A stretch of DNA of 64,000 nt from Nakamurella lactea DSM 19367 (GTDB lineage: Bacteria; Actinomycetota; Actinomycetes; Mycobacteriales; Nakamurellaceae): assembly GCF_000426645.1 (NCBI RefSeq), contig NZ_AUFT01000012.1:186001-250000 (forward strand), in the 5' to 3' direction. Each line of letters starts with the position of its first letter. The first letter of the stretch is position 1. A program made the position numbers and the translations under genes. This document shows, in pieces, positions 679 to 45,541 of the stretch. The notes below the pieces were generated by a model. That model was not told the origin of the DNA, searched no databases, and saw only the letters and a program-made list of their open reading frames with translations.

Positions 679-3555
679 ATGGCAGGTCGTAAGGGATCGG
701 ACGGGAACACCCGGCTGGTCGTCGTCGAGTCCCCGAACAAGGCGAAGACCATCGCCGGCTACCTCGGCGACGGATACGTCGTCGAGTCGTCGATCGGGCA
801 CATCCGCGACCTGCCGCGCGGCGCCGCCGACGTACCGGCCAAATACAAGGGCCAGCCGTGGGCACGGCTCGGCGTCGACACGGACCACGATTTCGAGCCG
901 CTGTACGTGGTGTCGCCGGACAAGAAGGCCCAGGTCGCCAAGCTCAAGGCGCTGCTGGCCGACGCCTCCGAGCTCTACCTGGCCACAGATGAGGACCGCG
1001 AGGGCGAGGCCATCGCCTGGCACCTGCTGGAGACGCTGCAGCCCAAGGTTCCGGTCAAGCGGATGGTCTTCCACGAGATCACCAGGGCCGCGATCCAGGC
1101 AGCGGTGGACAACCCGCGCGAGATCGACGACAACATGGTCGACGCCCAGGAGACCCGCCGCATCCTCGACCGGCTGTACGGCTACGAGGTCTCTCCGGTG
1201 CTGTGGAAGAAGGTGATGCCGAAGCTGTCCGCCGGGCGGGTGCAGTCGGTGGCCACCAGGATCATCGTGGAGCGGGAGCGGGCCAGGATGGCCTTCCGCG
1301 CCGGCACCTACTGGGGCATCGACGCCCAGTTCGCCCAGCAGGGCAACGACAGCACGTTCACTGCGGCGCTGGCAACGGTGGACGGCCGCCGGCTGGCGGT
1401 CGGTCGGGACTTCGACGAGACCACCGGGCAGATCAAGGCATCCGCCGACGTGCTGCTGCTCGACTCCGACGGCGCCGCCACCCTGGCGGCCGGCCTGGCC
1501 GGCGGGACCGCGAACGTCACCTCGGTCGAGGAGAAGCCGTACACCCGGCGGCCGTACCCGCCGTTCATGACCTCGACGCTGCAGCAGGAGGCGGGCCGCA
1601 AACTCGGCTTCTCCACCGAGCGGACCATGCGGACCGCGCAGCGGCTGTACGAGAACGGCTACATCACCTACATGCGGACCGACTCGACCACGCTGTCGCA
1701 GACGGCGCTGGACGCGGCCAGGGCGCAGGCCCGCGAGCTGTACGGACCGGAGAACGTGCCGTCGGCGCCGCGGCAGTACACCAAGAAGGTGAAGAACGCC
1801 CAGGAGGCGCACGAGGCGATCCGGCCGTCCGGCGAGAGCTTCCGCACCCCTGGCGAGGTCGCGAAGTCGCTGTCCGGCGACGAGTTCCGGCTCTACGAGC
1901 TGATCTGGCGGCGGACCGTTGCCTCCCAGATGGTCGACGCCAAAGGGCTGACGCTGCAGGTCAGGATCGCCGCCAGGACAACCCCGGCTGAGGGAGGGGC
2001 CGGGCCTTCTGTCGACTGTGTTTTCAACGCCTCGGGCCGGACCATCACCTTCCCCGGGTTCCTGCGTGCCTACGTCGAGACCGTTGACGCCGAGGCGGGC
2101 GGCGAGGCCGACGATGCCGAACGCCGGCTGCCGAAGTTGGAGGTCGGGCAGCTGCTGGACACCAGGGAACTGACGCCGGGCTCGCACACCACCTCGCCGC
2201 CGGCCCGGTACACCGAACCGAGCCTGATCAAGGCCCTCGAGGACCTGGGCATCGGCCGGCCGTCGACCTACTCCTCGATCATCCGGACCATCACCGACCG
2301 CGGCTACGTCTGGCGCAAGGGCCAGGCGATGGTGCCCAGCTGGATCGCGTTCGCGGTGATCGGCCTGCTCGAGCAGCACTTCTCCCGGCTCGTCGACTAC
2401 GACTTCACCGCGGCGATGGAGGACGACCTCGACCAGATCGCGGCCGGGGCCATCGGCCGGGTGCCGTGGCTCAACTCCTTCTACTTCGGCGGTGACGTCG
2501 GACCGCAGGGCGGCGTCGGTCGCAGCGGCGGGCTGAAGAAGCTGGTCGGCGAGAACCTGGAGGGCATCGACGCCCGCGAGGTGAATTCGCTGCCGCTGGT
2601 CAAGGATTCGCAGGGCCGGCAGGTCTACGTGCGGGTCGGGCGGTACGGGCCGTACCTGGAGCGGCCGGCGCTGCCGATCGCGGCCGTCGAGCAGACCGAC
2701 GGGGCTGACGCAACTGCCGGCGCTGACGGAACTGCCACGGCCGCGCCGCAGATGGAGCGGGCGAACCTGCCCGACGAGTTGGCCCCGGACGAGGTGACGC
2801 CGGAGACCGTCGACGAGCTGTTCTCCAAGGCCGAGGCCGGCGACAAGGAGCTGGGCACCGATCCGGTGAGCGGGCACGTCATCGTGGCCAAGGACGGTCG
2901 CTACGGGCCGTACGTCACCGAGGTGCTGCCGGAGCCGGCATCGGAGGGCACAGCCGGGGCATCCGCACCCAAGAAGGGCAGCAAGAAGGCCGCGGCGCAG
3001 AAGCCGCGGACCAGCTCGCTGCTCAAGTCGATGTCGCTGGAGACGGTGACGCTGGAGGACGCGCTGCGGCTGCTGTCGCTGCCGCGGGTGGTCGGCGTCG
3101 CGCCGGACGGTGAGGAGATCACCGCGCAGAACGGCCGCTACGGTCCGTACCTGAAGAAGGGCACCGACTCCCGCTCGCTGGCCGACGAGGAACAGATGTT
3201 CACCGTCACCCTGGACGAGGCACTGGCCATCTATGCCCAGCCGAAGGCCCGCGGCCGCTCGGCGGCCGCGGCGCCGCCGCTGCGCGAGCTGGGCACCGAC
3301 CCGGCGACCGAGAAGCCGATGGTGATCAAGGACGGCCGGTTCGGGCCGTACGTCACCGACGGGGAGACCAATGCCTCGCTGCGCAAGGGTGACGAGGTGG
3401 AGACGCTCACCGTCGACCGCGGCGCCGAACTGCTCGCCGAGCGCCGGGCCCGCGGACCGGCGCCGAAGAAGACCCGCAAGGCGCCGGCGAAGCCGAAAGC
3501 CACTACCGCCCGAACGGTCCGCAAGAAGGCACCCGCCCGCAAGACCGCCGGCTGA
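679..3555 (+). CDS. topA: DNA topoisomerase I (type IA)
   Basis: Relaxes negative supercoils through a transient 5'-phosphotyrosyl DNA break. The protein is 958 residues. The TOPRIM domain opens with VVVESPNKAKTI and carries the acidic TDEDREGEAIAWH motif. The catalytic tyrosine is Tyr331 in YMRTDST. The C-terminus lacks Cys4 zinc fingers and instead has four GRYGPY/GRFGPY repeats (TopoC repeats), followed by a Lys/Ala/Pro-rich basic tail, the usual actinobacterial arrangement. Start: ATG 679 sits 13 bases after an AAGGA box; an in-frame TTG at 676 is the alternative. It is the first gene of a co-directional set with the small membrane protein and the MFS fusion, although a repeat and a hairpin separate them. 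Confidence 0.97.
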   Translation: MAGRKGSDGNTRLVVVESPNKAKTIAGYLGDGYVVESSIGHIRDLPRGAADVPAKYKGQPWARLGVDTDHDFEPLYVVSPDKKAQVAKLKALLADASELYLATDEDREGEAIAWHLLETLQPKVPVKRMVFHEITRAAIQAAVDNPREIDDNMVDAQETRRILDRLYGYEVSPVLWKKVMPKLSAGRVQSVATRIIVERERARMAFRAGTYWGIDAQFAQQGNDSTFTAALATVDGRRLAVGRDFDETTGQIKASADVLLLDSDGAATLAAGLAGGTANVTSVEEKPYTRRPYPPFMTSTLQQEAGRKLGFSTERTMRTAQRLYENGYITYMRTDSTTLSQTALDAARAQARELYGPENVPSAPRQYTKKVKNAQEAHEAIRPSGESFRTPGEVAKSLSGDEFRLYELIWRRTVASQMVDAKGLTLQVRIAARTTPAEGGAGPSVDCVFNASGRTITFPGFLRAYVETVDAEAGGEADDAERRLPKLEVGQLLDTRELTPGSHTTSPPARYTEPSLIKALEDLGIGRPSTYSSIIRTITDRGYVWRKGQAMVPSWIAFAVIGLLEQHFSRLVDYDFTAAMEDDLDQIAAGAIGRVPWLNSFYFGGDVGPQGGVGRSGGLKKLVGENLEGIDAREVNSLPLVKDSQGRQVYVRVGRYGPYLERPALPIAAVEQTDGADATAGADGTATAAPQMERANLPDELAPDEVTPETVDELFSKAEAGDKELGTDPVSGHVIVAKDGRYGPYVTEVLPEPASEGTAGASAPKKGSKKAAAQKPRTSSLLKSMSLETVTLEDALRLLSLPRVVGVAPDGEEITAQNGRYGPYLKKGTDSRSLADEEQMFTVTLDEALAIYAQPKARGRSAAAAPPLRELGTDPATEKPMVIKDGRFGPYVTDGETNASLRKGDEVETLTVDRGAELLAERRARGPAPKKTRKAPAKPKATTARTVRKKAPARKTAG

Positions 3556-3569
3556 CCATCGTCCGGCTG

Positions 3570-3614
3570 CCGTAGCGGGGTTGTCCCGTCAGCCCGTAGC
3601 GGGGTTGTCCCGTC
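3570..3614. repeat. Two 21-bp perfect direct repeats downstream of topA
   Basis: The 21-bp unit starting CCGTAGCGGGG and ending TTGTCCCGTC occurs at 3570-3590 and again at 3594-3614, giving a 24-bp period with a 3-bp spacer. It lies between the topA stop and the next gene. No function is known to me; a recent tandem duplication or a protein-binding site are possible. Confidence 0.85.
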
Positions 3615-3624
3615 GGCGCCCGAT

Positions 3625-3642
3625 CTCAGGGCGAACCCTGAG
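3625..3642. terminator. Perfect 7-bp hairpin after topA
   Basis: CTCAGGG (3625-3631) and CCCTGAG (3636-3642) form a perfect stem around a CGAA tetraloop. There is no T-run on either side, so it would be a tail-less terminator of the kind seen in high-GC organisms, or an operator. It lies 43 bases before the next start codon. Confidence 0.45.
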
Positions 3643-3685
3643 GGAAACGGAGTGGGTCGGTCGCCGGGTCTCCTACGATCAACGG

Positions 3686-4435
3686 ATGACGTCGGGACGG
3701 CTGGGCAGCGGAGGCGACTTCGCCGACGCCCTGTTCGGCGCGGACGGCACCGGCGATCCGGCGATCGTCACCGAGGCTCCGGTGGTGTTCGGGGACCCGC
3801 TGGCCGAGGCGCCGCTCGGCCGCACCGCCGGCAGCGGGTTCACCGGGTCGCTGACCGCCCCGGACGCAATCACCAGGGTGGACGGACCGCCGCCGCTGAC
3901 GAACGACGCGATCGTCGCCGCCGGACGGCAGCTGGCCGCCGAGCAGGCGCAGCAACGGTCGAGCACCGAGGCCCGGCAGCGGGCCGCCGATCAGGCCCGC
4001 CGGACATCGTTGACGCAGGGCCGGGTCACCGCCCAGCGGCGGGCGGCCGAGCAGACGGCGCTGCGGTCGTCGCAGCACTCACAGCTCGCCGATCCCTACC
4101 GCGGGCGGACGTCCGCCCAGTTGGCGTCGTCGAACGCGCCGGCGCAGCGGCCCTTCGCCGAGCCGCCGGTGCCGCCAGGAGCTGGACCGTATCGCCCCCA
4201 GGTGCCTGGCCTGCTGACCAGGGCCGACCGGGCCGCGCTGCTCCAGCAGATGAAGACCGCGACCCCGCAGGAACGCCGCCAGCTGATGGGTCAGCTGGCC
4301 GCGGCCCAGGGCAAATCGGTCGGCAAGCGCGGCTGGGGCTGTCTTTTCGGGCTGATCCTGCTGATCCTGCTGGGCACCGGCCTCGGCCGGGAGATCGTCC
4401 AGTCCATCGTCGATGCGATCAACAGTGGGCAGTGA
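3686..4435 (+). CDS. Gln/Ala-rich protein with one C-terminal membrane segment
   Basis: A 249-residue protein of unknown function. The N-terminal 60 residues are Gly/Ala/Pro-rich. The middle (about 75-125) is a charged, Gln/Arg/Ala-rich helical stretch that may form a coiled coil. After a proline-rich linker comes a short conserved-looking block (LTRADRAALLQQMKTA) and a single hydrophobic segment (GWGCLFGLILLILLGTGLG, about 215-233). This looks like a tail-anchored cytoplasmic protein. ATG 3686 was chosen because it begins the codon-biased region; an open frame upstream runs antisense to nothing useful. The next gene starts one base after its stop, so the two are probably co-translated. Its position between topA and the MFS/Tmk fusion is the only hint of role. 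Confidence 0.75.
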   Translation: MTSGRLGSGGDFADALFGADGTGDPAIVTEAPVVFGDPLAEAPLGRTAGSGFTGSLTAPDAITRVDGPPPLTNDAIVAAGRQLAAEQAQQRSSTEARQRAADQARRTSLTQGRVTAQRRAAEQTALRSSQHSQLADPYRGRTSAQLASSNAPAQRPFAEPPVPPGAGPYRPQVPGLLTRADRAALLQQMKTATPQERRQLMGQLAAAQGKSVGKRGWGCLFGLILLILLGTGLGREIVQSIVDAINSGQ

Positions 4436-4436
4436 C

Positions 4437-6734
4437 GTGAGCTCAGCGGCGTCATCCGGCGCAGCCAGGACCCCTGGCGGCGCGCCGAAACAGCAGTCGG
4501 CGCTCGGCGCGCTGATCCGGATCCCGGTGTTCCGTCGGCTCTGGGCCGGCATCACCCTGTCCAGCCTCGGGGACTGGCTCGGGCTGTTGGCCACCACAGC
4601 GCTGGCGGCCTACCTGACCAGGGACTCGTCGAGTCTGATGCAGGGCGCTGCGGTGTCCGGCGTGCTGGTCACCCGGTTGCTGCCGGACCTGATCCTGAGC
4701 CCGGTGGCCGGCGCCTTCGTGGACCGGTTCGACCGCCGCAAGGTGGCGATCATCTGCGACCTGACGGCGGGCGCCATCTACCTGGTGATCGCCTTCGCCG
4801 GGAACCTGACGGTGTTGCTGGTCGGGCAGTTCCTGGTCGAGGCGGTCGGGCTGTTCTCGACCCCGGCGAAGCAGGCGATGTGGGTCAACATCGTGCCGCG
4901 TGAGCGGCTGGCGGTGGCCAACCAGCTCAACTATGTCTCGATCTACGGCATGGTCCCGGTGGCCTCGCTGGTCTTCGCCCTGCTGTCGACGGTCGCGCAG
5001 TTCTTCGGGACCAAGGATCAGGAGGTGCTGGAGAGCTCCGGGTTGATGGCCGGCAGCACCTCCAGCACGGCGGTGGTGGTCGCGCTGGTGTTCAACGCGT
5101 GCACCTTCGTGGTCACCGCATCGATCATCTACTTCTCCCGCAACCTGATCCCGGCGTTCGTCGGCGAGCGCACCGCCACCCGCAGCGTCTTCTCGTTGGT
5201 CAAGGAAGGCATCTCGTTCGTCAAGAACAGCAAGGTGATGCGGGCGCTGTATCTGGGCATCCTCGGCGCGTTCGGTGCCGGCGGGCTGGTGGCCGGGGTG
5301 GCCCAGGCCTACGTGGCCACCCTGGGTGCGGGCAACGCCGGCTACGGCATCCTGTTCGGTTCGGTGTTCACCGGGCTGGCGCTGGGCATGCTGATCGGTC
5401 CCAAGGTGTTGCCGGCGGTGCCCCGCCGGGCGGTCTTCACCGCGGCGATCGGCGTCGCCGGGTTGATGCTGCTGCTGATGAGTCTGGTGCCCGACTTCGT
5501 CGGCGCGGTGATCACCGCGGCGGTGATGGGCCTGGCTGCCGGCGTCGCCTGGATCACCGGGTTCACCATGATCGGGCACGAGGTGTCGGATCAGTTGCGC
5601 GGCAGGGTGTTCGCCTTCGTCATGTCGTCGGTGCGGTTGACCCTGCTGGGGGCGATCGCGGTCGGACCGATCCTGGCCGGGGCGATCGGTGTGCACACCC
5701 TGACCATCGGCACGTTCACCTTCTCGATGTCCGGGCCGGGGATCGTGTTGGCGATCGGCGGCCTGGTCGCGGTGGTGGTGGCGGTGATCGCCGGCCGGCA
5801 GGCGGGCGGCATGCGCGCCGGGGTGGTGTCCCGGATCCTGCGCCGACGCCGGCTGCTCGCCGAGGACAACGACCGGCCAGGCGTGCTGATCACCGTCGAG
5901 GGCCCGGATCACGCGGCGAACGCCCGGGTGGCCGACACGGTGGCCGCCGGTCTCGAGGCGGACGGCTGGCAGACCCTGCTGGAACGCGGGGAGAGCTGGC
6001 CGGAGTCGTCGTACTCCAGTCCCGGTGACGCGCTGCGGGCGACCGCCGACCTGGCGGACCGGCTCACCGAGACGGTGCGGCCGGCTCTGCAGGCCGGCGC
6101 GGTGGTGATCTACCAGGAGTACCTGGATGCGCTGGTGGTCCGGTTCGGCGCCCAGGGCGGGCAGGACGAGGAGCGGTTGTTGCGGGTCGGCATGTGGGTG
6201 GCCCGCGGGGCCTGGGCGGATCTGACGATCTTCGTCGACCCGTCAGCCGACCGCCCGGAGGTGCCAGGGCAGTCGGCGATCGAGGCGGCCGTGCCGCCGG
6301 GCGAACCGGGTGCCGATGAGCTGCCCGGCACCCTCGAGGAGGCGATCGAGGCCGCCGACGAGGCCGGGTTCGAGCTGCGGGAAACCGACGGCCTGGCCGA
6401 CGGAATCGACAGAGCTGACGGTCCCGGCCGGCCTGATCGGCCCGGCGCGCCCGACCAGCAGCCTGCCGACCAGCAGCCGGCCGACCAGCAGTCGGCCGAC
6501 CAGCAGGCAGCCGACCAGCAGCCGGCCGACCAGGAGGCCGTCGATCCCGAGCAGGCGTATCGGGAGCGGGCCGCGTCAGCCCCGGAACGGTACCTGCGGG
6601 TCGCCCCGTTGGGCGACGACGGCGCCGAGCTACCGGCCGAGGTGGTCGAGCGGATCGCCTCGGTGCTGCGGGTGCGCAGCCCGGTCCCGGCGATCGAGTA
6701 TGCCGCCAGCGGTTCGCCGCAGCCGGCCGGATAG
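4437..6734 (+). CDS. MFS transporter fused to a degenerate thymidylate kinase domain
   Basis: A 765-residue fusion. Residues about 30-470 form a twelve-helix major facilitator domain with the loop signature DRFDRRKV. From about residue 483 the sequence follows the dTMP kinase fold (GVLITVEGPDHAA, later YQEYLDALVVRFGAQ). Its P-loop, however, reads EGPDHAANARVA: the Gly-Lys-Ser/Thr needed to bind phosphate is absent, so kinase activity is unlikely. Related MFS-Tmk fusions next to topA are known in other actinobacteria. A six-fold PADQQ repeat sits in an acidic linker before the C-terminal block. Start: GTG 4437 directly follows the previous stop; GTG 4425 is an alternative. Transport substrate is unknown. 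Confidence 0.85.
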   Translation: MSSAASSGAARTPGGAPKQQSALGALIRIPVFRRLWAGITLSSLGDWLGLLATTALAAYLTRDSSSLMQGAAVSGVLVTRLLPDLILSPVAGAFVDRFDRRKVAIICDLTAGAIYLVIAFAGNLTVLLVGQFLVEAVGLFSTPAKQAMWVNIVPRERLAVANQLNYVSIYGMVPVASLVFALLSTVAQFFGTKDQEVLESSGLMAGSTSSTAVVVALVFNACTFVVTASIIYFSRNLIPAFVGERTATRSVFSLVKEGISFVKNSKVMRALYLGILGAFGAGGLVAGVAQAYVATLGAGNAGYGILFGSVFTGLALGMLIGPKVLPAVPRRAVFTAAIGVAGLMLLLMSLVPDFVGAVITAAVMGLAAGVAWITGFTMIGHEVSDQLRGRVFAFVMSSVRLTLLGAIAVGPILAGAIGVHTLTIGTFTFSMSGPGIVLAIGGLVAVVVAVIAGRQAGGMRAGVVSRILRRRRLLAEDNDRPGVLITVEGPDHAANARVADTVAAGLEADGWQTLLERGESWPESSYSSPGDALRATADLADRLTETVRPALQAGAVVIYQEYLDALVVRFGAQGGQDEERLLRVGMWVARGAWADLTIFVDPSADRPEVPGQSAIEAAVPPGEPGADELPGTLEEAIEAADEAGFELRETDGLADGIDRADGPGRPDRPGAPDQQPADQQPADQQSADQQAADQQPADQEAVDPEQAYRERAASAPERYLRVAPLGDDGAELPAEVVERIASVLRVRSPVPAIEYAASGSPQPAG
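6451..6540 (+). repeat. Six in-frame 15-bp tandem repeats (PADQQ)
   Basis: Six consecutive 15-bp units resembling CCGACCAGCAGCCGG run from 6451 to 6540 inside the MFS/Tmk-like gene. They encode repeats of Pro/Ser/Ala-Ala-Asp-Gln-Gln. Units differ by only a few bases; the last is the most diverged. The period is a multiple of three, so copy-number changes would keep the frame. Confidence 0.93.
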
Positions 6735-6785
6735 CCAACCGCGAATCCTCTCGACCGCAGCCGCCCGATCGGGCACGATGGCTCG

Positions 6786-7361
6786 GTGGATTCGCCCTTG
6801 GACACCGTGACCTGGCCGCTGCGCACCGATCGGCTGACGATCCGCCGGCTGGCGATCGACGACCTGCCCGCGATCTGGGCCTACCGTCGGCAGCCCGCGG
6901 CCAACGAATGGATGACCAGGGAGTTCCCGACCGAGGGCGCATTCCGTGCACACTTCGAGAAGCCCCAGTCGTTGGCGACCACCTTGGTGCTGGAACGCGA
7001 CGCCACCGTGATCGGTGACCTGATGCTGAAGGTCGAGGACGGCTGGGCGCAGGAGGAGGTGGCCGTGCAGGCGGTCGCGGTGCACGCCGAATTGGGCTGG
7101 TGCCTTGACGAGGCACACACCGGGCGCGGATATGCGGTCGAGGCGGTGACGGAGTTGATCCGGTGCTGCTTCGACGATCTCGGCCTGCGCCGGGTGAGCG
7201 CGAACTGCTTTGCCGACAACACGCCGTCCTGGAAGCTGATGGAGAAGGTCGGCATGCGCCGCGAGATCCACAGCGTGCGGGACGGCCTGCACCGGACCCG
7301 GGGTTGGCTCGACGGCTACGGCTATGCGCTGCTGGCCGACGAGTGGCGCGAGCGGGCCTGA
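6786..7361 (+). CDS. GNAT family N-acetyltransferase (RimJ/RimL-like)
   Basis: A 191-residue acetyltransferase that would use acetyl-CoA to acetylate an N-terminal or small-molecule amine. It begins with the typical LRTDRLTIRRL strand. The acetyl-CoA motif is an atypical HTGRGYAVEAVTELI (usual pattern Q/RxxGxG/A), followed by LGLRRVSANCFADNTPSWKLMEKVGM, the conserved RimJ/RimL C-terminal block in which the Asn-Ser-Met residues contact CoA and substrate. The GTG start at 6786 follows a short 51-base gap after the MFS fusion. It converges on the giant ABC exporter gene, with a strong inverted repeat between them. Substrate unknown. Confidence 0.85.
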   Translation: MDSPLDTVTWPLRTDRLTIRRLAIDDLPAIWAYRRQPAANEWMTREFPTEGAFRAHFEKPQSLATTLVLERDATVIGDLMLKVEDGWAQEEVAVQAVAVHAELGWCLDEAHTGRGYAVEAVTELIRCCFDDLGLRRVSANCFADNTPSWKLMEKVGMRREIHSVRDGLHRTRGWLDGYGYALLADEWRERA

Positions 7362-27137: not shown

Positions 27138-27213
27138 GCCGCCTTAGCTCAGTCGGTAGAGCATCTCACTCGTAATGAGAAGGTCTGGGGTTCGATTCCC
27201 CAAGGCGGCTCCA
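27138..27213 (+). tRNA. tRNA-Thr (anticodon CGT)
   Basis: A complete cloverleaf: acceptor stem GCCGCCT/AGGCGGC (27138-27144 with 27203-27209), D-arm with AGTCGGTAGA, anticodon stem TCTCA/TGAGA around loop CTCGTAA (anticodon CGT, reading ACG), T-arm GGGGTTCGATTCCCC, discriminator T at 27210 and an encoded CCA (27211-27213). A TAGACT hexamer at 27108-27113 is a plausible -10. Confidence 0.95.
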
Positions 27214-38501: not shown

Positions 38502-38502
38502 T

Positions 38503-38521
38503 CTGCGGCCGGGGGCCGCAG
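38503..38521 (+). terminator. Hairpin terminator closing the peptide-importer operon
   Basis: CTGCGGCC (38503-38510) and GGCCGCAG (38514-38521) form a perfect 8-bp stem with a GGG loop, beginning one base after the dppB-like stop codon. No T-tail. It insulates the reverse-transcriptase locus from importer transcription. Confidence 0.75.
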
Positions 38522-38535
38522 GTGGCAGCATGGTC

Positions 38536-38701
38536 GGATGCGGGGTGGGCGAGGCGAGAGTGGGTCGATGCGACCCGTCTCAGGGGTAACCCCTGGGTGC
38601 AGTTCACAGTTGGTATCAGCGTCCGACGCCGGACCACATGCTTCGCGTGTCCGGCGGCGCCGCGGACAGGTGCGGTTGGTCGCCCCGCCCGCCCCGCATT
38701 C
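38536..38701 (+). ncRNA. Candidate retron msr-msd RNA
   Basis: The arms 38538-38556 and 38681-38699 are complementary over 19 positions (17 Watson-Crick, one G-U, one A-C), and pairing can extend a base or two. They flank about 124 nt that fold into successive hairpins: GGGTCG/CGACCC (38562-38576), CAGGGG/CCCCTG (38581-38595) and a longer stem 38621-38667 built on GTCCG/CGGAC and GCCGGAC/GTCCGGC. The right arm ends 5 bases before the reverse-transcriptase ATG. A terminal a1/a2 inverted repeat, short msr hairpins and a distal msd hairpin directly upstream of the RT are the architecture of a retron non-coding RNA. The branching guanosine cannot be assigned with certainty. Confidence 0.6.
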
Positions 38702-38704
38702 CCG

Positions 38705-39988
38705 ATGACCGGGGACTACCTGTACTCACCCGACTGGGCTCGGCTGCTCGCCGATCTGGTGGTCGCGGCCAGGGCGCGGTGGCGCCGGTCGGACCTGGCC
38801 GCGGCCATGGCGGAGGTGTTGGATGACGCCGAGGCGGACGGGACCGCGCACCGGATCCTGCAGGCGTTCCCGCGGGAACCGGTCGATGTCCGGGCCACCC
38901 TCGCCGGTTACCTCGTCGAGCTGCGCAGCGTGTCCGAACCGCTGTCCGAGCCGCAGACGGGTGCATTGCTCGCCGCTTCGGCGCGCACCCCAGTGCTGTG
39001 GGCCGGGCTGCCGGTACTGAACACACCGGCGGAGTTGGCCTCGTTCTTGGATCTCACGATCGGCGAGCTCGACTGGTTCGCCGACCACGGCAATTGGCTG
39101 CGCAGCCACCGCGGGCCTCTGCAGCATTACCGGCAGCGCCGGATCGCCAAACGTTCGGGGCTGCGGCTGCTGGAGATCCCCAAGCCACGGTTGCGGGAGA
39201 TTCAGCGAAAGCTGTTGCGCACCTTGGTGTCCGTCATCGAACCACACCCGGCCGCGCACGGCTTCCGGCCGGGCCGGGACGCCCGGTCGTTCGCCGCGCC
39301 ACACGCCGGCGGGCCGATCGTGCTGCGGGTCGACCTGCGGGATTTCTTCGCAAGCGTGCCCGGTGCGAGGATCAGGGCTGTCTTCGTGGCTGTCGGCTAC
39401 CCGCCGCCGATCGCTGCCCTGCTGGCCGACCTGTGCACCACCGCCACACCGATCGCCGCGTTGTGCGGCCTCGATCCGGCGATCGCCGGGCTGCTCCGCG
39501 GAAGGCACCTGCCGCAAGGCGCCTCGACCTCCCCAGCGTTGTCGAACCTGGTGCTGCGCAACACAGATCGGCGGATCGCCGGGTACGTGGCCCGGCACGG
39601 CCTGCGGTACACCCGTTATGCCGACGACCTCGCGGTGTCCGGCAGCGGGTTCGACCCGGCGGCCGTGCGGTGGGTGATCGAGAAGATCGTCACCGACGAG
39701 GGTTTCCGCCTGCATCCGGACAAGACCTCGGTGATGCGCAGCCACCAACGGCAGCGGCTGGCTTCCCTGGTGATCAACACCCGGCCACAGGTCAATCGCA
39801 GCGAGTACGACGCGCTGCGGGCACTCCTGCACAACGCCGCGTCCACGGGTGCGGCCGCGCAGAACCGTGGCGGTCACGAGCATTTCCGCGAGCACGTATT
39901 CGGTCGGATCGGTTGGGCCGGGGCGTCCAACCCAGATCGCCGTCGCGTCCTGTTGGGTCTGGCCGAGCGGGTCGACTGGAGCCGGTGA
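38705..39988 (+). CDS. Retron-type reverse transcriptase with N-terminal extension
   Basis: A 427-residue RNA-directed DNA polymerase. Residues 1-115 form a helical extension of unknown role. The RT domain has GFRPGRDARSFAAPH (retron-like NAxxH region with the Asn missing), catalytic Asp210 in RVDLRDFF, LPQGASTSPALSNLVL (motif B) and YADD at 305-308 (motif C, YTRYADDLAVSG). The thumb region QRLASLVINTRPQVNRSEYDALRALLHN matches the retron block but has ASL where VTG is usual. Start ATG 38705, right after the candidate msr-msd. No maturase, endonuclease or integrase domain is visible, which argues against a group II intron. No obvious effector gene is adjacent; the N-terminal extension might serve. 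Confidence 0.88.
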   Translation: MTGDYLYSPDWARLLADLVVAARARWRRSDLAAAMAEVLDDAEADGTAHRILQAFPREPVDVRATLAGYLVELRSVSEPLSEPQTGALLAASARTPVLWAGLPVLNTPAELASFLDLTIGELDWFADHGNWLRSHRGPLQHYRQRRIAKRSGLRLLEIPKPRLREIQRKLLRTLVSVIEPHPAAHGFRPGRDARSFAAPHAGGPIVLRVDLRDFFASVPGARIRAVFVAVGYPPPIAALLADLCTTATPIAALCGLDPAIAGLLRGRHLPQGASTSPALSNLVLRNTDRRIAGYVARHGLRYTRYADDLAVSGSGFDPAAVRWVIEKIVTDEGFRLHPDKTSVMRSHQRQRLASLVINTRPQVNRSEYDALRALLHNAASTGAAAQNRGGHEHFREHVFGRIGWAGASNPDRRRVLLGLAERVDWSR

Positions 39989-40135
39989 GATCCGCCACCA
40001 ACGGGGTTCGCCGGCTGGCCCCGGGCGACCGGGCGTGCGAAAATAGCTACGGAGCCGCCGGATGGTGGTGACCCGGACGAGATGTGCGCCGTACCCGGAC
40101 CGACAAGACGACGCTCCCGAGGGAGCTGAGTCGTG

Positions 40136-40393
40136 ATGAGTCAGATCGTCCAGATTGTCGGATCACTGCTGGTGCTGGCCGCCTTCGCCGCCGCCCAGCG
40201 CGGGATGATGAACCCGAAGTCGTTGGTCTATCTGGTGCTGAACTTCGCCGGATCGAGCATTCTCGCCGTCGAGGCCGTCCTCGAGCAGCAGTGGGGCTTC
40301 CTGGTGCTCGAGGGCGTGTGGGCGATCGTTTCCGGCTTCGGCCTGATCGGTCTGCTCCGAGCCGGCCGAAACGTGGCAACATCGAGCTCATGA
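40136..40393 (+). CDS. Small membrane protein, CBU_0592-like
   Basis: An 85-residue protein, nearly all membrane: three hydrophobic segments ([60 protein letters not shown]). The pattern matches the CBU_0592 family of small conserved proteins with no known function. ATG 40136 is preferred (GGGAG about 10 bases upstream); GTG 40133 adds one residue. Its stop overlaps the start of the thiol-quinone reductase gene (ATGA), so the two are translated together. It lies 147 bases after the reverse transcriptase; a link to the retron cannot be excluded but the coupling favours the reductase. Confidence 0.8.
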
Positions 40394-41617: not shown

Positions 41618-43447
41618 GTGGTGAGGGTGGGGAAGGCTCGGGTCGACGTGATCGACGGGCAGGAGCTGTTCGCCAGCGCCGTGGAACTGGAACTCGAGCG
41701 TTTGCTGCACTCGCTGGGCGACGGCATGGTGCGGACCATCGAGGCCTTCACTGCGGCTCTTTCCGACGCCACCACCTTTCCGGCCAGCACCACCCTTTCA
41801 TTGACCACCGACGCTGCTGGTCCGGACCCTGATGCTGCTGGCTCGGCTGTTGCTGCGACGGACGCGGTGGACCCGGCTACCCGGATCGATCGGATCGCTG
41901 CTCTCGAGAGTGCCCGCGCGGTATTGGCGGCGGCACAGTTGGCAGAGGAGTTGGCGTTCGCCAAGCAGCAACGCGCCGAACAGGTGGCCGCAGGGGTCAA
42001 GACCCGGAAGCTGGGTCGGGGCATCGCCGAGCAGGTCGGTTTCGCGCGCCGGATCTCTCCGGTGGCCGCGGCCCACCACATCGGGTTGGCGGCCGTGCTG
42101 GCGGAACGGCTGCCGGAGGCGTTCAAGCTGTTGCTCTCGGGTGAGGTGTCCGAGGACCAGTGTCTGATCCTGGCGACCCGGACCTCGCATCTTTCGGATC
42201 TGGACGCGATCATCGTCGACGCCGGGATCAGCCCGCGGATGTCGGGGTGGAACAAGAAGCAGACGGAGCAGGCCGCGGACCGGGCTGCCTATGAGATTGA
42301 TCCGCAGGGTTCGGTGGATCGGCGGGCCAAGGCCGAAAAGGACCGCCGGGTGTGGTGCCGGCCGGCCCCCGATTGCATGGCGAAGGTGACGGCGCTGTTG
42401 CCGATGGTGGAAGGTGTCGCGGTGTTCAAGGCGTTGAGCCAGGCCGCGGACAGCAGTAAGGGCATCGGTGGGGAGAAGCGGACTCGTGGGCAGATCATGG
42501 CCGATGAGTTGGTCACCAGGGTGACCGGGCAGGAGCAGGCGCATCTGGTGCCGGTCGAGGTGAATCTGACGATCACCGCCGACGCGTTGTTCGGCGACGG
42601 TGACGAGCCGGCTCAGCTGGAGGGGGTGGGGCCGGTCCCGGCCGAGTACGCCCGCGGGGTCATCGCCGGTCAGCCACCCGCCAGCGGACCCGGTTCCGAA
42701 CCGGGTGCCGACGTGCCCCGACCACCGGAACCGGTAGCCGAAGCCGCTGTCGAACCGGTGGCCGACGTCGAGATAGCCGACGCCGCACCAGATCCAGATC
42801 CCGGACTTGAGGCTGCTGGCGACGCGCCGCCGGTCGACGCGGCCGCCGGTGACGCGACCCCGGATGATGCGGGTTCAGGCGACGCGGCGGCGGCCGGTGA
42901 ACCCACCGGAACCCCACCGCCCCGATCGCCGCAGCCACTATCACCGCTTCGATCGGGGCGGCGGCGGCCGCGACGGTCGTCGCCACCGCTGCCGTGGGCG
43001 CTGATACCGGATCCCGGTTCCGGCGGTGAGTCGGACAGCTGTGACGTCACCGCTCGGGAATTCCGGCGGGCAAAGGCCTGGATCACCAGAATCCTGGTCG
43101 ACCCGATCACCGGAGTCGCCACCAACATCGATTCCCGGCGCCGCGAGTTCGAAGGCACCGCCAGACGTTTCATCACCGTCCGCGACCGACAGTGTCGCCA
43201 GCCGTACTGCGGCGCCGACATTCGCCATGCCGACCACATCGTTCCGTACCGCGAGGGCGGACCCACCAGCATCGACAATGGCCAGGGCCTGTGCGAGCGG
43301 GGGAACTATGCCAAAGAGATCCCTGGCTGGCACACCACCAGGGGTTCCAGGCCCGGCGAGGTCATCACCACCACCCCGACCGGACACTCCTACCGCACCC
43401 TGCCGCCCCACCAGACGGGTATGCCCGGGACCACCGTCAAAGCCTAG
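41618..43447 (+). CDS. DUF222/13E12-type protein with HNH nuclease domain
   Basis: A 609-residue member of the actinobacterial 13E12/DUF222 family, common in many copies and of unsettled function. DUF222 spans about residues 5-350 (LARGI AEQVGFARRISPVAAAHHIG-type helices, then CRPAP-like block CMAKVTALLPMVEGVAVFKAL). A long Pro/Ala/Asp-rich variable linker (about 350-455) follows, then a C-terminal HNH domain: CRQPYCGADIRHADHIVPYREGGPTSIDNGQGLCERGNYAKEIPGW. The fourth zinc ligand, normally a Cys in CExC, is Gly here, so zinc binding may be weakened. Start GTG 41618 or 41621, both after GGGAG. The stop overlaps the convergent lipase stop by 3 bases. Confidence 0.9.
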   Translation: MVRVGKARVDVIDGQELFASAVELELERLLHSLGDGMVRTIEAFTAALSDATTFPASTTLSLTTDAAGPDPDAAGSAVAATDAVDPATRIDRIAALESARAVLAAAQLAEELAFAKQQRAEQVAAGVKTRKLGRGIAEQVGFARRISPVAAAHHIGLAAVLAERLPEAFKLLLSGEVSEDQCLILATRTSHLSDLDAIIVDAGISPRMSGWNKKQTEQAADRAAYEIDPQGSVDRRAKAEKDRRVWCRPAPDCMAKVTALLPMVEGVAVFKALSQAADSSKGIGGEKRTRGQIMADELVTRVTGQEQAHLVPVEVNLTITADALFGDGDEPAQLEGVGPVPAEYARGVIAGQPPASGPGSEPGADVPRPPEPVAEAAVEPVADVEIADAAPDPDPGLEAAGDAPPVDAAAGDATPDDAGSGDAAAAGEPTGTPPPRSPQPLSPLRSGRRRPRRSSPPLPWALIPDPGSGGESDSCDVTAREFRRAKAWITRILVDPITGVATNIDSRRREFEGTARRFITVRDRQCRQPYCGADIRHADHIVPYREGGPTSIDNGQGLCERGNYAKEIPGWHTTRGSRPGEVITTTPTGHSYRTLPPHQTGMPGTTVKA

Positions 43448-44127: not shown

Positions 44128-44187
44128 ATGATTCATCGCTCACTGACGACCACGCCGGGCGGACCATCCCGGCGTGCTGTCATGTGA
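44128..44187 (+). CDS. Attenuator leader peptide with three Thr codons
   Basis: A 19-codon open frame, MIHRSLTTTPGGPSRRAVM, ends at TGA 44185-44187. Residues 7-9 are three consecutive threonines (ACG ACC ACG, 44146-44154). It lies 94 bases before a threonyl-tRNA synthetase gene, with a terminator in between. This is the arrangement of ribosome-mediated attenuation: ribosome stalling at Thr codons when charged tRNA-Thr is scarce would favour read-through. The ribosome site is weak (CGGG). Confidence 0.75.
   Translation: MIHRSLTTTPGGPSRRAVM
44151..44176 (+). promoter_or_regulatory. Leader (1:2-type) hairpin overlapping the Thr codons
   Basis: CACGCCGGG (44151-44159) and CCCGGCGTG (44168-44176) form a perfect 9-bp stem with an 8-nt loop. 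The left arm starts within the run of Thr codons, so a ribosome stalled there would prevent this hairpin. That frees the right arm to pair with the GACA-CCCCGGG region of the terminator stem. Confidence 0.65.
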
Positions 44188-44205
44188 TTACTGCGAACTG
44201 ACACT

Positions 44206-44241
44206 CGACACCCCGGGCCGGCGCCCGGGGTGTCGTTGTTT
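44206..44241 (+). terminator. Attenuator (intrinsic terminator) before the ThrRS gene
   Basis: CGACACCCCGGG (44206-44217) pairs perfectly with CCCGGGGTGTCG (44224-44235) around a 6-nt loop, followed by TTGTTT (44236-44241). A 12-bp GC-rich stem with a T-rich tail is rare in this genome and is the best intrinsic terminator in the window. Confidence 0.85.
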
Positions 44242-44281
44242 CGACGAAGTCCCCGGGCCGACCTCTGCGAGAGGACATCCC

Positions 44282-45541
44282 ATGCACCAGAACAACAATC
44301 GAGCCGACCACCGACAGGTCGGGCGCGACCGGCAACTGTTCGCCACCCACGAACTGGTCGGCTCCGGCCTGCCGCTGTGGCTGCCAGACGGCGGCGTCAT
44401 CCGCGCCGAACTGGAGAAATTCGCCGCAGAACGAGCCGTCGCCGCCGGCTGTCGGCGCATCTACACCCCGGTGTTGGCCAAACGTGAGCTCTTCGAGCGC
44501 TCAGGGCACTGGGACAAGTTCTCCGACGACATGTTCCCGCCGATGGTGGTCGGTGGTGAGGAGTTCGTCCTACGGCCGGCCAACTGCCCGCACGCCTGTT
44601 TGGTCTACGGCGCGCAACTGCACAGCTACCGCGAGCTGCCGATCCGGCTGGCCGAGCTCGGCTCGATGTTCCGCAGTGAGCTGTCCGGGGTGCTGGGCGG
44701 CCTGTCCAGGGTGCGGCAGATCAATTTGGATGACGTGCACGTCTTCTGCACCGAGGATCAGATTGGTTCCGAAGTCGCGGCGGCGGTGGCGCAGATCCAT
44801 GACGCCTACCGGATTCTCGGGATCGAGGTCGCCTACTATCGGCTGTCGCTGAGCGGACCTGACGGAAGGTATCTGGGTGATCGGCGGCTGTGGGCCGGCG
44901 CCGAGGCGCGGCTCGCGGACGTGCTGAGGGAACTACGGCTCCCGTTCCGGCCGGTTGAGGGCGAGGCTGCCTTCTACGGACCGAAGATCGACGTCCAGGT
45001 GATCGATGCCGCCGGCCGGGAGGAGACCCTGTCGACCGTCCAGTTGGACTTCAACCAACCGGAGCGGTTCGACCTGCAGTATGTCGCCGCAGATGGGTCG
45101 AGGAGGCGCCCGGTGATGATTCACCGCGGGCTGTTGTCGGCGATGGAACGGCTGACCGCGTTGCTCATCGAGCTCTACGCCGGCTCCTTTCCGGTGTGGC
45201 TGGCGCCGGTGCAGGTCCAGGTCCTGCCGGTCGGTCCCGATCAGCAGCCGGCGGCGGGGCGCCTTCTCGAGGAGCTGCACTCGGCCGGATTGCGCGCCGA
45301 GATCGTCGGCGCAGACAGCAGTCTCGGCCGACGGATCCGGCACGGGCGCGATCGTCAGATCCCGTACGCCGCGGTGATCGGTGCCCGCGAGGCGGCCGAC
45401 GCGGCCGTCGCCCTGCGCCGGCGCGACGGAGTTCAGGTGCCGCCGGTCGATGCGTCTGTCGCGGTTGCTGCCATCAAGGCCCTGGCGGGGAGCCGTTCGC
45501 TGTCGCTGGAGCTGGATCTACCCGCCACCGACAACCGGTAG
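44282..45541 (+). CDS. Threonyl-tRNA synthetase lacking TGS and editing domains
   Basis: A 419-residue ThrRS, against about 640-690 for the full enzyme. It starts directly at the class II catalytic core (ELVGSGLPLWLPDGGVIRAELEKF). The zinc/threonine site is intact: Cys in LRPANCPHACLVY, His in DDVHVFC and His in MIHRGLLSAMERL; motif 3 continues LTALLIELYAGSFPVWLAPVQV. The anticodon-binding domain (about 315-410) follows. Absent are the TGS domain and the N2 domain that hydrolyses Ser-tRNA-Thr, so proofreading must come from elsewhere. ATG 44282 follows GAGAGGA. The gene is controlled by an apparent Thr-codon attenuator. It may be a second, stress- or resistance-related ThrRS; the main thrS would lie elsewhere. 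Confidence 0.9.
   Translation: MHQNNNRADHRQVGRDRQLFATHELVGSGLPLWLPDGGVIRAELEKFAAERAVAAGCRRIYTPVLAKRELFERSGHWDKFSDDMFPPMVVGGEEFVLRPANCPHACLVYGAQLHSYRELPIRLAELGSMFRSELSGVLGGLSRVRQINLDDVHVFCTEDQIGSEVAAAVAQIHDAYRILGIEVAYYRLSLSGPDGRYLGDRRLWAGAEARLADVLRELRLPFRPVEGEAAFYGPKIDVQVIDAAGREETLSTVQLDFNQPERFDLQYVAADGSRRRPVMIHRGLLSAMERLTALLIELYAGSFPVWLAPVQVQVLPVGPDQQPAAGRLLEELHSAGLRAEIVGADSSLGRRIRHGRDRQIPYAAVIGAREAADAAVALRRRDGVQVPPVDASVAVAAIKALAGSRSLSLELDLPATDNR

Follow-up and report, generated by a model that had tools for sequence, protein, structure and literature searches.

A probable retron from an untyped clade and its conserved upstream RNA in Nakamurella lactea

The window analysed here is a stretch of 64,000 nucleotides from Nakamurella lactea DSM 19367, and coordinates are positions within it. 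On its forward strand a gene for a retron-type reverse transcriptase (RT) is directly preceded by a segment with two short hairpins and one longer stem, enclosed by a pair of complementary arms. Retrons are bacterial elements with an RT that is predicted to use a segment of the element's structured RNA as the template for a short DNA. Upstream of the element lies an oligopeptide ABC transporter operon. Downstream lie a guanidine-III riboswitch, a gene for a CBU_0592-type membrane protein and a GST-like gene. The surroundings are not a recognisable defence island. The features of the element are as follows.

38529-38534, plus strand: CATGGT as a possible -10 promoter box, ending five bases ahead of the a1 start in the covariance model; weak for the window
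38538-38557, plus strand: a1 arm of the closing helix, from direct reading, fold and covariance model; 16 of 17 modelled pairs changed on both sides among 19 relatives
38558, plus strand: predicted 2'-5' priming guanosine, in the context GAGA
38562-38576, plus strand: msr hairpin 1, GGGTCG-ATG-CGACCC, exact; five of five modelled pairs changed on both sides among 19 relatives
38579-38597, plus strand: msr hairpin 2, CUCAGGGG-UAA-CCCCUGGG, the most conserved element
38621-38667, plus strand: msd hairpin, the template stem, with an inner loop and a UUC apical loop; from the fold and two covarying helices
38668-38679, plus strand: predicted 3' end of the template and presumed start of copying, adjoining a2; placed by retron chemistry
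38680-38699, plus strand: a2 arm of the closing helix, on the same basis as a1
38705-39988, plus strand: retron-type RT of 427 amino acids, with YADD, FAAPH in region X and LAS in region Y
38705-38932, plus strand: four-helix domain at the N terminus of the RT (residues 1-76), from AlphaFold models

The arms a1 (ATGCGGGGTGGGCGAGGCGA, 38538-38557) and a2 (TCGCCCCGCCCGCCCCGCAT, 38680-38699) pair over 20 positions, with 18 Watson-Crick pairs, one G-U pair and one A.C mismatch. A sequence-only reading had put this inverted repeat in the right place but gave it 19 positions with 17 Watson-Crick pairs, one G-U and one mismatch, so that its arm was one pair too short. Both short perfect hairpins described in that reading (38562-38576 and 38581-38595) proved exact, and the second, with the core CAGGGG-TAA-CCCCTG, extends to 38579-38597. 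The longer stem that it reported at 38621-38667 is present with an inner loop, and the RT does begin as close to the repeat as it stated, five bases separating the end of a2 at 38699 from the ATG at 38705. Folding of positions 38502-38710 was better than that of all 200 dinucleotide shuffles (z -4.03). A repeat search with the default seed of 9 reported no inverted repeat; the G-U pair and the mismatch interrupt the arms and leave 8 as the longest exact run.

The upstream regions of 19 relatives, taken from 30 fetched loci, were aligned (alignment A2). Excluded were the window copy and L002-L008 (arms shifted in the first alignment, or membership of other sub-branches), L019 as a near relative of L018, and both L017 and L030, in which no clear element was visible by eye. 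In these 19 sequences 91.5% of the cells of a 43-pair, five-helix structure can pair, and 30 of the 43 pairs show changes on both sides. Covariation was 0.469 as against 0.156 in shuffled alignments, with none of 500 shuffles as high, and fell to 0.055-0.135 when the partner was slid by one to three columns; these covariation figures lean towards the structure, which was derived from the same 19 rows. An independent test was provided by R1, a covariance model built from the 19 relatives with the window excluded. R1 found the window RNA at 38540-38697 with 69.4 bits and an E-value of 7.5e-11 (R1 E-values are rough). It also matched the left-out loci L002-L008, L019 and L030.

For a larger alignment, 87 of 111 loci were given to R1, and all 87 were matched by the model; those left out were mostly close kin of rows that were kept, plus L120 and L121. 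In this alignment, which was fitted to the structure, 95.5% of cells pair, 39 of the 43 pairs show changes on both sides and covariation is 0.693, compared with 0.172 after shuffling and no more than 0.104 after sliding. Covariation in the two msd helices extends to six of seven and six of six pairs, and two of the eight pairs of hairpin 2 are invariant across the 87 sequences. The msr hairpins and the longer msd stem are thus both represented, and every helix covaries save the near-invariant core of hairpin 2. Template ends like GACAGG or ACUCG are recurrent among the relatives.

R1 was specific to the family. It matched 12 of 12 further family loci, comprising 11 of the 12 other myxobacterial loci (L180 was not given to the model) and one Tsukamurella record, and none of 25 loci of other RTs, including Ec67-type, St85-type, Se72-type, Mx65-like, Mx162-like and group II RTs. 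Searches of Rfam 15 at gathering thresholds and at E 0.5 gave no match to the RNA and no retron family. A hand-typed RNA consensus pattern, drawn from another sub-branch, had no match in the window. At the level of sequence, these results demonstrate a structured RNA at 38538-38699, consisting of a1, two msr hairpins, the msd hairpin and a2, directly before an RT of the retron clade (see below).

The RNA and the RT occur together across genomes. When 101 genomes, among them that of the window, were searched with the RT, 34 had a match at E 0.001, and 30 of these clearly belong to the family (E 6e-55 or better). The other four (G091, G097, G047 and G063) gave fragments or weak matches to the RT, and no match to R1. 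R1 matched 31 of the 101 genomes, the window's own again included, with a single match in each, and the 31 include all 30 with a clear family RT. Twenty-nine of the matches are directly upstream of the RT. The match in G010 is about 4 kb upstream, and that in G065 is at the end of a contig, with no RT found there.

In named genomes, a profile search yielded at least 564 confirmed RT relatives, and among the best 80 of these the full-length RNA lies upstream of the RT in 78 (E 0.00035 or better). L121 gave only a partial R1 match (E 0.004). L120 gave none, and its contig ends 143 bases before the RT match. With such strong covariation, the comparison of upstream regions that had been proposed from the sequence as a check came out in favour of the RNA. 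Two phylum-wide genomes with three loci were also R1-positive, L071 at 68 bits and L072/L073, which are one place, at 34 bits. An RNA scan of 396 phylum-wide genomes matched two (the window's own and G088) and missed the known positive G076 as few candidates were scored, so its result is not a prevalence figure; an RT scan of the same 396 gave five at E 1e-20, the window's own included. Single-protein scans of genome and viral contigs, which detect close relatives only, found no RT relative, whereas a profile scan of genome contigs did.

Pfam identified RVT_1 in the window RT (4.8e-19). The best PADLOC models, both matched over nearly the full length, were RT_other (PDLC02949) at 563 bits and RT_outgroup (PDLC03740, described as 'retron') at 529 bits, followed by RT_XIII at 289 bits. 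RT_other and RT_outgroup led, in the same order, for all eight relatives tested, which come from Actinomycetota, Myxococcota, Planctomycetota and Pseudomonadota. Since the two best models are untyped and no numbered type precedes them, the earlier suspicion of a divergent type is upheld. Neither model lists a type number, effector or RNA; the conserved RNA is added by the present analysis. Among NCBIfam models, those for retrons St85, TIR and Ec67 ranked first, and Drt2, Drt3a and group II maturase also matched, all below cut-off. An AlphaFold model of the RT had a pLDDT of 90.1, and the top 18 Foldseek matches to it in the PDB are all retron RTs, with Ec86 first. With an RT profile against PDB sequences the first 14 matches were retron RTs, two of which are labelled RNA-directed DNA polymerase and are retrons according to the fold search. 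In one relative, L030 (G019), the core of the RT is intact but its N-terminal part reads as though in another frame, a possible frameshift or assembly error.

A tree of 49 rows with a midpoint root covered 44 retron RTs, one annotated group II RT and four RTs without annotation. The 44 form a retron clade with support of 100/99, and the window RT falls inside this clade; the check on RT placement that the sequence-only reading had proposed thus came out in favour of a retron. Within the retron clade the window's RT family forms its own clade of 31 rows, also with 100/99, and L158 and L159 are outside the family. The tree rows originate from Actinomycetota, Pseudomonadota, Planctomycetota, Acidobacteriota, Gemmatimonadota, Myxococcota and Bdellovibrionota, but several are metagenome bins, so individual phylum labels may be wrong. 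The window RT groups with L002, from the same genus, and with Nocardiaceae (Williamsia and Rhodococcus). L009 and L016, from other members of the window's genus, are on a different branch. This split within a genus points to exchange between lineages or to an old duplication. A single myxobacterial genome, of Pyxidicoccus, has three distinct retron RT lineages (L099 and L155-L157), and a close member of the window's RT family was found in 13 of the 27 genomes searched of that locus's genus.

Region X of the window RT reads FAAPH in place of NAxxH. The Asn of this motif is absent from all 29 aligned members of the family; in a wider set, L137 and L141 retain it. According to PMC6868368, NAxxH is found in 14 of 16 validated retrons, Mx65 and Ec48 being without it, so the motif is not strictly defining. 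We do not count the loss of the Asn against a retron, because it is shared by 29 of 29 members and by the validated Mx65 (same source). In region Y the window has LAS, where VTG is found in 14 of the 16 validated retrons in PMC6868368. Of 29 aligned rows, 28 end the triplet in G and the window alone in S, and relatives have LAG, VTG, LTG, VAG and others. LAS is shared with L124 from Paraburkholderia. Of the two differences noted from the sequence alone, the missing Asn stands, but the triplet read as ASL at the VTG position becomes LAS when aligned with relatives.

Comparison was made with the loci L157 and L199-L203, which we take to be Mx162-like or Mx65-like. R1 gave no match in any of them. 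The Mx162-like RT of L157 matches the window RT at 41% over the matched part, and an Mx65-like locus in G508 matches L099 at 44%. L199, from the Mx65/Mx162 comparison set, has a 427-amino acid frame with GAAPH and VTG. RT_XIII is the best model for the Mx162-like and Mx65-like RTs, at 515 and 437 bits, but only the third for the window RT (289 as against 563), and in the tree these RTs are outside the window's family clade. The window retron thus does not appear to be type XIII, to judge from its best models and its separate clade. Mx65 and Mx162 RTs share with the window RT an extended N terminus, and Mx65 likewise has the NAxxH Asn substituted, according to PMC6868368. The best fold match, Ec86 (Eco1; PDB 7v9x), has a TM-score of 0.60 over the query and 0.80 over the target, with 26% identity. 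The Ec86 RT is shorter, with 314 residues in the structure as against the 427 of the window RT. By its title, 7v9x is a complex of Ec86 with its linked effector, whereas none was seen beside the window retron.

G directly follows a1 in 85 of the 87 aligned RNAs, two having another base there. The G is preceded by A in 77 of the 85, and the base before the priming place is A in 78 of all 87. The commonest contexts are GAGA (25), AAGC (24) and GAGC (14), mostly of the form AG(A/C). In validated retrons the priming G sits in, or just after, the 5' arm, and the contexts TAGC, CAGA, CAGC, GAGC (Mx65) and ACGC are given in PMC6868368; the G after a1 in the present family, with its context, resembles these sites. 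In 63 of the 87 RNAs a TANNNT box ends 3-14 nt before a1, compared with a mean of 7.7 and a maximum of 19 for single-base shuffles, and only four of 87 have one 25-36 nt upstream. This placement would fit a transcript that starts at a1. The window itself has no TANNNT 3-14 nt before a1 and has CATGGT instead, like L012 and L080.

By established retron chemistry, the RNA would be transcribed from just before a1, a1 would pair with a2 and the RT would bind the msr hairpins. The 2'-OH of G38558 would then prime DNA synthesis opposite position 38679, which adjoins a2. Copying would pass through the msd hairpin and halt before msr hairpin 2, and the predicted product is a branched msDNA of about 60-81 nt. 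The ribonucleoprotein might perhaps act alone, via the N-terminal helical domain of the RT, or with a partner encoded elsewhere. Analogy with other retrons suggests, if loosely, that its role is most probably phage sensing.

We hold with high confidence that this is a retron belonging to an untyped clade, which has a conserved RNA of its own. The arrangement a1-msr-msd-a2-RT, proposed from the sequence, is supported by the conserved and covarying RNA and by an RT inside the retron clade. A retron by descent could nevertheless be a decayed or silent copy that makes no msDNA in this strain. The LAS triplet in place of the xxG of the family, the absence of a TANNNT box from the window and the patchy presence of the element (31 of 101 genomes) would be consistent with decay. 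We think it unlikely, given the full-length open frame, in which YADD and the core motifs are present, the confident fold (pLDDT 90.1), the intact closing helix of the RNA and the occurrence of LAS in L124 as well. A role for the RNA in cis-regulation of the RT gene, as an attenuator or riboswitch-like leader and not as a template, is suggested by its location in the RT leader, five bases before the start codon. However, no Rfam family matched it, the a1/a2 closure is followed by G in 85 of 87 sequences, and the RNA of G010 is conserved though 4 kb from its RT, making such a leader very improbable.

Placing the RT outside the retrons, as a defence-associated (DRT/UG) or group II-like enzyme with its own RNA, could draw on the Drt2, Drt3a and group II maturase models that matched in NCBIfam, although these are below cut-off, and on the fact that the retron models of NCBIfam, while ranked first, are below cut-off too. 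Against this, the RT lies inside the retron clade with 100/99, in a tree without the UG/DRT classes, and PADLOC, PDB sequence and fold searches all put retron RTs first; we regard a non-retron RT as extremely improbable. Stems are cheap at the 72% GC of the stretch, and the default repeat search listed none, as might be expected if the repeats were chance pairing in GC-rich DNA. Chance pairing has a negligible probability in view of the fold z-score, the covariation and the single match per genome, and is refuted by the covariation together with the window match of a model built without the window. The element is therefore taken in what follows as a retron, a kind of element already known. New as far as checked, with no priority claimed, are the RNA model of the clade, its reach across phyla and the absence of a linked effector.

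Retrons are usually described as an RNA, an RT and an effector. The linked or fused effector of a tripartite retron defence system was not found here: none was seen beside the window retron in the comparison of 31 regions of 10-15 kb and 80 regions of about 3.6-6.3 kb. In the 31 longer regions the RT formed a cluster in 27, the next largest neighbour cluster comprised seven of 31 at scattered positions, and shared gene order was limited to close kin; ORF picking missed the RT in four of the 31, the window's included, so other genes may have been missed too. The 80 shorter regions had no widely common neighbour, except for pentapeptide-repeat genes in one lineage. Three neighbour clusters in this set, with 75, 38 and 20 loci, were taken for antisense shadows of the RT, on inspection of a few examples.

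A pentapeptide-repeat gene follows soon after the RT in 10 of 128 sources scanned (L034-L036, L085, L086, L088, L090, L091, L094 and L111), which include Amycolatopsis, Crossiella and Kutzneria. Three of these genes are located as follows.

L085, 3730-4350: pentapeptide-repeat gene
L088, 3475-4065: pentapeptide-repeat gene
L094, 3504-4088: pentapeptide-repeat gene

In L085 and L088 the frame overlaps the end of the RT; in L094 it begins about 25 bases beyond that end, and in L111 about 0.3 kb beyond it. Pfam supports the identity of four of the genes. The scan gave no match in the related loci L087, L089 and L097, nor in the window. In the loci that have it, the pentapeptide-repeat protein is a candidate partner of the retron. 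The pentapeptide-repeat fold is a DNA mimic able to bind gyrase. L074 and L075 have a pentapeptide-repeat gene about 1 kb downstream of the RT. In these two loci, titled Kitasatospora arboriphila and Williamsia muralis, the retron RNAs are nearly identical and so are the pentapeptide genes. Such similarity suggests that a record is mislabelled or contaminated, or that a transfer took place recently.

The N-terminal domain of the window RT had no fold match with Foldseek (best E 2.1), and its only Pfam match, PrmC_N at E 0.068, was below cut-off; a known effector in this position was therefore rejected. The domain is short or missing in L003 and L005-L007, and so is not essential to the element as such. 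It is possible, though we hold it tentatively and rather doubt it, that the family is a stand-alone lineage without a linked effector, in which the N-terminal domain of the RT serves as effector or docking site and, in one actinobacterial lineage, a pentapeptide-repeat partner is used instead. If so, the pentapeptide-repeat protein would represent a retron effector class that is new.

An untyped group of retron RTs is thus tied to one conserved RNA with a predicted priming site, a promoter-like box and a fold. Production of msDNA is directly testable, and such loci can be found by their RNA as well as by their RT. A widespread lineage without a linked effector raises the question of whether it defends alone, borrows a partner or has another role. 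For DNA writing in high-GC bacteria, the family might supply RTs and templates.

In L173, the G010 locus (1574-6982) with the retron RNA 4 kb from its RT, Gp49-like, HTH and SecB-like genes, a further small gene and an ABC transporter lie between the two. The Gp49/HTH/SecB-like arrangement resembles a toxin-antitoxin-chaperone set, with Gp49 and SecB scores below cut-off. At 40051-40390 in the window, the guanidine-III riboswitch (E 7.7e-08) stands ahead of the small CBU_0592-family membrane protein, which is possibly a guanidine-responsive membrane protein. Positions 41618-43444 encode a DUF222/HNH endonuclease protein, of a family frequent in actinobacteria. A class II aminoacyl-tRNA synthetase is encoded at 44174-45538; as read from the sequence, it looks threonyl-type with a short N terminus and is possibly a second, editing-free copy. 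A tRNA-Thr(CGT) is located at 27138 in the same window.
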